Shown in pieces: positions 14,432-24,505 of a stretch of DNA of 33,738 bases. Below the pieces are notes generated by a model. That model had not been told where the DNA came from and did not search any database. It saw only the letters and a list, made by a program, of their open reading frames with translations. Position 1 is the first letter of the stretch, and each line of letters opens with the position of its first letter. The position numbers were made by a program, and so were the translations under genes. This stretch comes from Candidatus Parcubacteria bacterium (GTDB lineage: Bacteria > Patescibacteriota > Patescibacteriia > Buchananbacterales > SURF-54), in the NCBI GenBank assembly GCA_003599635.1, contig QZIX01000015.1:1-33738 (forward strand). The letters are read 5' to 3'.

Positions 14432-14461
14432 TGAAGGCGACATTCTGGAAAGTCGCCTTCA
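14432..14461. repeat. REP-like palindrome TGAAGGCGACATTCTGGAAAGTCGCCTTCA
   Basis: 10-bp outer stem TGAAGGCGAC/GTCGCCTTCA; near-identical to 16532-16561. Confidence 0.85.
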
Positions 14462-14486: not shown

Positions 14487-14514
14487 GAAGGCAAAACGTC
14501 GACGTTTTGCCTTC
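14487..14514. repeat. REP-like palindrome GAAGGCAAAACGTC|GACGTTTTGCCTTC
   Basis: Perfect 28-nt palindrome sharing GAAGGC...GCCTTC arms. Confidence 0.85.
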
Positions 14515-15179: not shown

Positions 15180-15595
15180 TATCAGAAATTTTTCAATAAA
15201 AAAACACCGTGGCTTTTTAAAATCCATGGACTTGAAGCAACCCTTGAAGACGTTTTGTTGCCTTTAAAGGTGCAAAAGGAAAGCGAAGGAGAGGAAGAAT
15301 ATTACAATAGAGACTTCACGTTCAAAGATCCCATTGCGCAGTTTAGCAAGAAGCCTTTTAACGGATATTGCCTGGTCCGTTGTTATGCAAATGCATGTCA
15401 GGTTGTAGTTGAAAAAACACGTGTATCCGACCCGACAGATGTGGCAATTTTTTGTATGCAGTCAATGAAATCTGCCGCATTGCAAGGCAGCAGAAGATAA
15501 CCAAAAGACTGATAACGGCTATCAATCAGGAAAACTATGGTTATGCAGAAAGGCAGAAGAAAGAATTACTGGAAACATTTGGAGAGGGTCTTTAA
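15180..15595 (+). pseudogene. Frameshifted hypothetical gene
   Basis: Frame of ORF 15255-15500 (open from 15180) continues as LYAVNEICRIARQQKITKRLITAINQENYGYAERQKKELLETFGEGL* in another frame after the T6 at 15448-15453; no clear ATG/GTG start. Confidence 0.55.
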
Positions 15596-16295: not shown

Positions 16296-16845
16296 TTAAT
16301 TTATTGAAGTGTATTGCCAGTCATCAGACAAATGATGTTTTGAGAAGTTATAAATGGTGTAATGATAATAATTTTGCAGGTCTTTTACATTTCTAATAAT
16401 ATGGTCATAGTCAGATTTCTGCCATTTGAATTTATGAAATGGATTAAGGCTGCCACTTAAATCTATTTTTATATTTTAATAAATTTGGAGCTGTAAAATT
16501 TTTTGAAAAGCGATATGAGAATTGTTGACCCTGAAGGCGACATTCCGGAATGTCGCCTTCAATTACATAATTAATATCTCTTGACGACTCTTTTTTTAAT
16601 GATTGGATGACTTTTGAGATATTATATTTTTCACTCGCCTGTAATAATATATGCGCATGATTATGAAGAATGCAAAAACCGTATAATACAAAACTCTTTA
16701 ACTTCTGGCACAATAAAATTTCTTCAACCAATAAATCACAAAAAATTCTTTCCCTAAATAATGGAGAACTATTGTCTGTCTTTATAGTAATGAAGTAAAC
16801 GGCATTATCAATCTTGTAACGTTTTTGCGAGTTTTGATGCAACAT
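16296..16845 (-). pseudogene. REP-associated tyrosine transposase (RAYT, Y1_Tnp), frameshifted
   Basis: YFITIKTDNSSPLF, HNHAHILLQ (HUH motif), then after a +1 shift at ~16461-16472 DLSGSLNPFHKFKWQKSDYDHIIRNVKDLQNYYHYTIYN...DDWQYTSIN*. Confidence 0.85.
16532..16561. repeat. REP palindrome inside the RAYT coding sequence
   Basis: Perfect 30-nt palindrome tgaaggcgacattcc|ggaatgtcgccttca, translated as EGDIPECRLQ. Confidence 0.95.
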
Positions 16846-22266: not shown

Positions 22267-23232
22267 ATGTACTCGGTTTATGGTCCTTTGAAAATTCTTT
22301 CTTGTGAAGCAGCATTACACTCTGGCTTCGGACCAACTGTTGCCGGCCTATTAGCTGCGCCTCTCGTCAAAAGACGTGTAAAGATCTTTAGTAATGAAAA
22401 TCTAATGCCCGAGATCGACCCTTCTGAGGATCTAGAAGGGTGCGATGTCTACATCCTGCAACAACAGGTGTCACCTCTTTCCCAACAGATGATTGAACTT
22501 CTTCTTTTCATCGACGCTGCCAAGACTACATGTAAGGCAGCGCGTGTAACAGTCGTGTTGCCATACTATTTTTATGCGCGAACAGACCGTACCGATGGCA
22601 GAAAAATTTCAGCCGCAGCGGCTCTTTGGAGCAAACTGTATCAAAGAGCCGGTGCAGATCGTATCTTAACAATGGATCCTCACACAAATACTATCGAGGC
22701 ACAATCGCGAATCCCGCTTGATGCTCTACATGCAACAGTCTATTTACTGGCAAAGGTTTTGGGAGAAATTGGAAAAGAAGGAAAGGTCGTGGTAGCCACA
22801 GATCAGGGTTCAGCGAAATACAGTGGCGTCTACGCTGACTATTTCAATTTGCCATTGGCAGTAATCGACAAACGCCGAACTGACGATTCGGAAAAACCAA
22901 AAATGGTCGGCATTCTGGGGGAAGTGAATGGACTTACTGCAATTTTCTGTGATGATGAAACATTAAGCGGTAATACCTTGATTGACGCAGCTGAAATGGT
23001 AAAGTCGCGCGGCGCAAAAACAGCAATTGCAGTAGTAAGCCATGGATTTCTAAGTCTTGGTGTTAATAAAATTGAGGATTCCAAACTTGACCGCCTGGTT
23101 ATCACTGATACTGTGCCAATAATTGAAGAAAAAATTACGAAGAAGATTCAAGTCGTAACTATCGCCCAAATGTTTGCTGATGCCATAAGAAAAATGCACG
23201 GCTCACGAACATCAACAGAAAGCATTACCTAG
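22267..23232 (+). CDS. prs: Ribose-phosphate pyrophosphokinase (divergent)
   Basis: VVLPYYFYARTDRTDGRKISAA, DPHT, VVATDQGSAKYSGVYAD, DKRRTDD, DDETLSGNT; RBS gaaggagg. Confidence 0.9.
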   Translation: MYSVYGPLKILSCEAALHSGFGPTVAGLLAAPLVKRRVKIFSNENLMPEIDPSEDLEGCDVYILQQQVSPLSQQMIELLLFIDAAKTTCKAARVTVVLPYYFYARTDRTDGRKISAAAALWSKLYQRAGADRILTMDPHTNTIEAQSRIPLDALHATVYLLAKVLGEIGKEGKVVVATDQGSAKYSGVYADYFNLPLAVIDKRRTDDSEKPKMVGILGEVNGLTAIFCDDETLSGNTLIDAAEMVKSRGAKTAIAVVSHGFLSLGVNKIEDSKLDRLVITDTVPIIEEKITKKIQVVTIAQMFADAIRKMHGSRTSTESIT

Positions 23233-23244
23233 CGTGATACAACT

Positions 23245-23290
23245 GCGCACTTTCGGAAATCGCGTTTTCCGAAAGTGCGCCTTTTTTTAA
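23245..23290 (+). terminator. prs intrinsic terminator
   Basis: GCGCACTTTCGGAA-...-TTCCGAAAGTGCGC + TTTTTTT. Confidence 0.92.
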
Positions 23291-23623: not shown

Positions 23624-24505
23624 ATGTTTACAGGGTCATGTGTAGCGTTAATTACGCCGTTCAAAAACGGCCAGGTCGATTATCAAAAAATAACGGCCTT
23701 AGTTGAACGGCAAATAAAAAACGGCACCCGCGTCATCTGTCCCTGCGGTTGTACCGGGCAAGCAGCCACGCTTTCCCATGATGAACAAATCCGCATCATC
23801 GAAGCAGTCGTTGCAGCTGCTAATGGCCGCGTGAAGGTAGTTGCTGGCACTGGAAGCAATTCGACCCACGAGGCGATCATATTAACGCGGCGAGCCAAAG
23901 AAGCCGGAGCAGATGCTGCCTTGATGATAACGCCGTATTACAACAAACCGACGCAAGATGGTTTGTTCAAACACTATGAAGCAGTAGCCAAGGAAGTCGA
24001 TATTCCCATTGTTCTTTATAATGTTCCCGGCCGTACCGGAGTTAACATGCTGCCGTCGACTGTCGCGCGACTTACCAAAATCGAAACTATAATAGCGATC
24101 AAAGAAGCATCAGGTAATATAAACCAGGTAAATGAACTGATGGAAAGCTGCAGTATTACCGTTTTATCTGGCGATGACCCGCTGACTCTGCCGATGCTGG
24201 CTTTGGGTGCCGCGGGCGTAGTCAGCGTTACGGCCAATGTGGCGCCTTTTCAGGTAGCTGACATGATCAACACCTGGGAACAAGGCAAATACAAACATGC
24301 CCAGGAAATTCATTTCAGACTTTTACCGCTGTCAAAAATCCTATTTTGTGAAACCAACCCAATACCTGTACAGTGGATAATGTCACATTTGGGATTTTGC
24401 GAAGACGAGCTTCGATCGCCGCTTTTTTCCCTGTCCGAACAGTGGCAACCAAAAATTTTAGCCGTACTTGAAAAATTACGCTTGTTTAAACAAGTTGCGG
24501 CTTAA
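23624..24505 (+). CDS. dapA: 4-hydroxy-tetrahydrodipicolinate synthase family protein
   Basis: GSCVALITPFKNG, ITPYYNKPTQDGL, VLYNVPGRTGVNM, IIAIKEASGN, LSGDDPLTLPMLALGAAGVVSV. Confidence 0.93.
   Translation: MFTGSCVALITPFKNGQVDYQKITALVERQIKNGTRVICPCGCTGQAATLSHDEQIRIIEAVVAAANGRVKVVAGTGSNSTHEAIILTRRAKEAGADAALMITPYYNKPTQDGLFKHYEAVAKEVDIPIVLYNVPGRTGVNMLPSTVARLTKIETIIAIKEASGNINQVNELMESCSITVLSGDDPLTLPMLALGAAGVVSVTANVAPFQVADMINTWEQGKYKHAQEIHFRLLPLSKILFCETNPIPVQWIMSHLGFCEDELRSPLFSLSEQWQPKILAVLEKLRLFKQVAA

Follow-up and report, generated by a model that had tools for sequence, protein, structure and literature searches.

A REP palindrome held in frame within a RAYT transposase gene of a Candidatus Parcubacteria bacterium and of its patescibacterial relatives

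Why should the gene of a RAYT transposase carry, in its own reading frame, a perfect palindrome of the REP type? The question is raised by contig QZIX01000015.1 (GCA_003599635.1) of a Candidatus Parcubacteria bacterium (Patescibacteriota; Patescibacteriia; Buchananbacterales; SURF-54), whose positions 1-33,738 on the forward strand, 33,738 nt in all, are referred to here as the window, and which constitutes contig C4 in a 778-kb draft genome with a completeness of 79.7%. An initial annotation, made from the letters alone, had described a perfect 30-nt palindrome at 16532-16561, encoding EGDIPECRLQ inside a Y1/RAYT gene, and this description holds. The palindrome is loopless and in frame, its arm of 15 exceeds the longest arm, 10, that arose when the codons of the RAYT ORF were shuffled 5,000 times, and this ORF matches Y1_Tnp (PF01797) with 34.6 bits in a family search. 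It consists of a 28-nt REP core, with arms GAAGGCGACATTCC and GGAATGTCGCCTTC, plus one base pair, and folds as a single-stranded DNA hairpin at -14.5 kcal/mol (z -6.7 versus shuffles). Exactly 1 of the 27,648 synonymous codings of EGDIPECRL forms the 28-nt palindrome. Taking into account this single coding and the shuffle maximum of 10, the feature that has been kept is a DNA palindrome and not merely a peptide. Thus, a chance palindrome is ruled out by the codon shuffles and by the 0 chance matches to the palindrome type expected in the window, and a palindrome driven by the peptide is ruled out by the count of codings.

The transposase gene lies on the minus strand and is broken. Its frame 0 (16444-16845, 133 aa) contains the HUH motif HNHAH (16651-16665) and reads to KYKNRF, followed by WQP and a stop, since a frameshift ends this frame early. 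The rest of the RAYT is found in another frame (16296-16457), which picks up at SGSLNPFHKFKWQKSDYDH, contains the W motif WQ (16419-16424) and the catalytic Tyr codon (16359-16361), and finishes with YTSIN at a premature stop (16296-16298), about nine codons early. The frameshift that had been proposed is therefore real, but its position at an A5 run (16466-16470) was wrong, and the relatives put the break at about 16458. Since F-[IVF]-x-K-Y-(about 7 residues)-PKF stands at this point in the relatives, about 11 nt appear to be gone there, in the I/F-x-K-Y block, in comparison with the intact homologs; the junction TTT-A-AGT-GGC would then lie at 16452-16461. With the frameshift and the early stop, the window RAYT bears two lesions and is an apparent pseudogene, lacking the intact open gene that most relatives retain in a single frame. 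Programmed frameshifting, which would make the gene a regulated fusion of two frames, could be argued from the fact that these frames jointly span the whole RAYT. However, inspection revealed no usual -1 slippery site, the shift is of a +1-like kind, which is consistent with missing codons, and the extra early stop and the single-frame state of most relatives point the same way, making this reading highly improbable; a programmed -1 frameshift has been rejected.

The catalytic block that had been located in the downstream frame was misassigned, the cited motif, WQKSDYDHIIRN, being the conserved W motif of the family. The catalytic residue of Escherichia coli TnpAREP (4er8) is Y115 (PMC8266576). 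The stretch DYIYINPVKHG of that protein aligns to Y-x-x-Y-N-x-x-KH in the window, and the Tyr of the YTIYN context is near-invariant across the family alignment. Judged from this alignment, the catalytic Tyr of the window is thus the Y of YTIYNFSKH, and not a residue of WQKSDYDH. The HUH motif and a Tyr in a Y---N context are therefore both present, the latter in the shifted frame. All eight members of alignment A1, the window included, match NF047646 (the NCBI model of REP-associated tyrosine transposases) and PF01797, and no further close relative of the window RAYT was found elsewhere in its 79.7%-complete genome. At least eight members (L038, L039, L040, L041, L042, L044, L045, and L048) have Asn in place of the second HUH histidine (DHxN).

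The palindrome type is not confined to the gene. A genome-wide count has revealed three more copies in the 778-kb genome, which thus holds dispersed REPs cognate to the in-gene one. Two of them, both reported by the initial annotation and both present, form a pair, separated by 25 nt, in the DNA between two genes of the window: an intergenic palindrome at 14432-14461, with a core near-identical to that of the in-gene copy, and a perfect 28-nt palindrome at 14487-14514, with GAAGGC feet and a different centre. The third (C6:80091) is located just after a recA-like gene. The view of a REP embedded in its own RAYT gene is supported. No REP directly flanks the window RAYT gene, the nearest intergenic one being 1.8 kb off, and the feet of the window REP are GAAG and not a 5' GTAG or GTGG. 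Elsewhere in the window, a loopless near-perfect 36-nt inverted repeat (23245-23280), lying between the ORFs 22267-23232 and 23624-24505, is of other than the REP type, and a short plus-strand ORF without a Pfam match (15255-15500) could be a gene remnant.

Across the 84,980 species genomes scanned, 27 loci with relatives of this gene were found, mostly from Patescibacteria (Kuenen-, Falkow-, Torok-, Kerfeld-, Uhr-, Gracili-, Peregrini-, Dojka-, and Buchananbacteria, among others), with one from Coatesbacteria. The family is sparse, since close homologs were present in only 5 of the 380 genomes of a phylum-wide search; the plasmid and phage collections searched yielded no homolog of the L037 protein. 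In 25 of the 27 loci, the same protein site carries a perfect or near-perfect palindrome; it is absent in the outlying Colwellia homolog (L063), and L062 has short hairpins only. The self-insertion first suggested is not supported as a recent event, given these homologs from many other genera; the ancestral segment that the initial annotation had named as grounds for refutation is present in a modified form, the homologs having an equivalent and not an identical palindrome. Of 25 Y1 genes in a set that also covers divergent ones, 18 have their strongest inverted repeat between HUH and W, and most of the others are without the long insert. A T/A foot occurs in 10 of 25 relatives. The RAYT of L055/L025 contains, besides the REP, extra insert-like stretches (WPARLRLATKSLAGG and ACFAKLCGG), one of which has a short palindrome of its own.

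The in-gene palindromes of the 25 genes share site and phase, and their arms differ in sequence. When they are aligned on their centres, 344 of 350 pairs are Watson-Crick, whereas random dealing of the 3' letters gives a mean of 224 and a maximum of 247. Parsimony on the protein tree sums to at least 53 two-sided pair changes versus 6 unpaired cells, on a quick tree with several unresolved forks, in which the insert columns were kept and the window row, stitched from its two frames, serves for placement only. Near relatives on this tree have arms in common, which are GACATTCC in L038, L042, and the window, and GAAGRAGCGATT in L049, L052, and L061. Taking into account that the arms have stayed complementary through these two-sided changes, and that they track the copies of their own genomes, the in-gene palindrome may be a recognition or regulatory site, as had also been proposed.

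A rival reading, adopted in 2018 for subclass 2.4, supposes that REPs are inserted recurrently and in frame into a tolerant loop, that only the copies in harmless loops survive, and that the RAYT, acting near its own gene, is a frequent victim. REPs do occur in frame in other genes of these genomes (of 67 copies examined, 13 lie in other ORFs, 49 are intergenic, and 5 are in Y1 genes), a situation also known from Rickettsia; the palindrome codes for a flexible loop, and the L047 insert is repeated (IRESRL three times) and the L048 loop longer. Nevertheless, one site is shared by nearly every member of the family, the palindrome sequences follow the gene tree, and codon phases are 23:0:0 in RAYT genes versus a mixed 8:3:1 in other genes, so that we consider recurrent insertion unlikely. 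The phase argument itself, by which the middle of the palindrome is at codon phase 2 in all of the 23 Y1 genes checked, including those with a frameshift, is weakened as evidence of a single origin because 8 of the 12 in-frame REPs examined in other genes also have phase 2, the commonest there. In-frame 28-nt REPs in other genes have been observed at L066, L071, L081, L085, L106, L108, L135, L136, L138, and L143 (near 1501), in hosts that we read from their sequences as TsaD-like, TyrRS-like, glycosyltransferase, RNA methyltransferase, and other genes, and a 343-aa ORF of L064 has two palindromes with GTAG/GTAA feet in frame (1706 and 2159).

If the in-gene palindrome belongs with its enzyme, it should resemble the REPs of its own genome. 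Patterns of the GWAGGCG type gave 1 to 47 hits per genome in 22 genomes, nearly all of them palindromic and exactly 28 nt long, and control patterns gave few matches. The best similarity between an in-gene palindrome and the REPs of its own genome was 16.1 of 20, versus 13.1 with permuted hosts (0 of 10,000 permutations), in a test that rests on pattern-limited REP searches, in which a few of the copies taken as dispersed sit in paralogous RAYTs (G063:C23:20522 in L124 and G074:C4:57 in L077) and the L056 gene's own copy (C41:3150) stayed among the dispersed ones, the result holding since other exact copies exist. About ten genes have exact copies of their core elsewhere in their own genomes, and genes with other feet (GAAGRAGCG and GAAGGCTGG) also have matching copies there; with the limited search patterns, no exact cognate copy was found elsewhere for L041, L044, L046, L050, and L055. 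Within 10 kb of the genes, palindrome density was 1.56/kb in the Y1 gene, 0.24 in intergenic DNA, and 0.014 in other ORFs, a count that saw no REP-type palindromes in these other ORFs and understates in-frame REPs elsewhere. REPs flank the RAYT gene at L039, L042, L054, and L059. The genome of L056 (G070), with 43 pattern hits and the centre types GGTTCC, GGTTTGC, GGATATAT, and CATTGG, suggests that several REP subfamilies occur in one genome.

It could be asked whether the perfection of the arms reflects recognition at all. Palindromy extends beyond the 28-nt core by a mean of 2.65 bp in Y1 genes and 2.75 bp in the remaining copies, versus 0.71 and 0.53 bp with shuffled flanks, and these flanks differ from locus to locus. 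The longest extensions reach 12 bp in L060 and 19 bp at L039:2260 (palindromy past the core covers L060:10313-10364, L039:2241-2306, and L056:5167-5206). Such flanks would be expected from template switching at hairpins, or from insertions into palindromes already in place. As template switching could also make the two arms alike, and so preserve a perfect palindrome without selection, perfection alone does not prove selection. An old palindrome held perfect by this quasi-palindrome correction, and not by selection for recognition, is an explanation to which the flanks lend weight; taken alone it leaves the match to own-genome REPs and the near-constant presence unexplained, and we regard it as doubtful. 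It can, however, act together with the explanation that we prefer.

A role in the mRNA has also been considered, whereby the in-gene stem would slow translation, or the RAYT would bind it and limit its own expression. The RNA fold is strong (-21.8 kcal/mol, z -5.1 versus shuffles) and its position is conserved; but the stem is in the middle of the gene, a long way from the start codon, and follows the dispersed DNA copies in sequence, something that an RNA role would not require. Such autoregulation seems quite unlikely, more so than recurrent insertion.

At the protein level, the AlphaFold model of L037 has a pLDDT of 86.7 and is confident except at the N-terminus and at residues about 101-120. 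The peptide encoded by the palindrome corresponds to a low-confidence loop between the helices 77-96 and 117-141, and the best fold match is 4er8, a solved RAYT with its REP hairpin bound. The peptide may be tolerated as a flexible surface loop.

Taken together, the locus is probably a decayed REPtron, that is, a RAYT gene with its own cognate REP as an in-frame hairpin and a few dispersed copies. An inherited, co-evolving REP is favoured over repeated self-insertion as the origin of the internal palindrome, because of its near-universal presence at one site and phase, the compensated change on the tree, the match to dispersed copies, and the palindromy of the flanks. Across the relatives, the site is fixed in the loop that leads from the helix after the HUH strand to the helix preceding the W and Tyr motifs, the 28-nt core and the reading phase are constant, and the sequence follows the gene tree. 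It may be proposed that the HUH enzyme recognises foot (GTAG or GAAG) and stem as a single-stranded hairpin, like characterised RAYTs, that the in-gene copy would be kept as a substrate linked to the enzyme, its peptide tolerated as a surface loop, and that enzyme specificity and REP sequence would thereby stay matched and travel together. More tentatively, the hairpin might be an obligatory cis element, a master copy recognised by the transposase that seeds the REPs of the genome, with protein and REP co-evolving through one gene. The GAAG feet in the window, in place of GTAG, and the REP-free flanks of its gene are evidence against the preferred explanation. Since the window enzyme is broken, mobilisation of its four REPs has probably ceased.

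An in-gene REP is, as a kind, already known. By the description of Quentin et al. (2018; PMC6006769), subclass 2.4 (RAYT group 4) has in-frame double-foot REPs within tnpAREP, in the stretch from HuH to Y; they were taken as insertions of little consequence and reported mainly for Cyanobacteria and Bacteroidetes, with the motifs NH[IFV]H / WQ / YIxNNP. Compared with that description, the family shares an in-frame REP between HuH and Y in a variable loop, and WQ. It differs in a HUH motif that is mostly DHxH or DHxN, in a Y motif that is mostly YTxYN[HF] instead of YIxNNP, in its patescibacterial hosts, in one fixed site and phase with nearly constant presence, in co-varying arms, and in feet that are often GAAG. 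The patescibacterial groups searched for are unnamed in the main text of that paper, and a literature search of incomplete coverage found no report of in-gene REPs in candidate phyla. The E. coli system (REPtron Ec; 4er8) is alike in its HUH Y1 fold, in a Tyr within a Y---NP-like motif, and in a GTAG-type foot with a stem, whereas its REPs are bulged and intergenic, flanking the gene and not lying inside it. Rickettsia palindromic elements are likewise in-frame palindromes of protein genes, a resemblance in kind only; they have no link to a fixed site in a transposase gene, and here there is a 28-nt core with REP-type feet. IS200/IS605 elements (IS608, ISDra2) also have a Y1 HUH enzyme acting on single-stranded DNA hairpins, but these stand at the element ends, and the window showed none at the borders of the gene. 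Thus, what is new here is the patescibacterial family, the near-universal presence of the palindrome at one site and phase, its compensated change, its match to dispersed copies, and the flank palindromy.

How RAYTs and REPs stay matched over the long term is unsettled, and the present family would join enzyme and substrate in one gene. With its at least 53 paired changes, it provides natural enzyme/hairpin pairs, which could be swapped in vitro for the study of specificity co-evolution. The family also extends in-gene REPs to candidate phyla, in bacteria whose genomes are small and poor in REPs.
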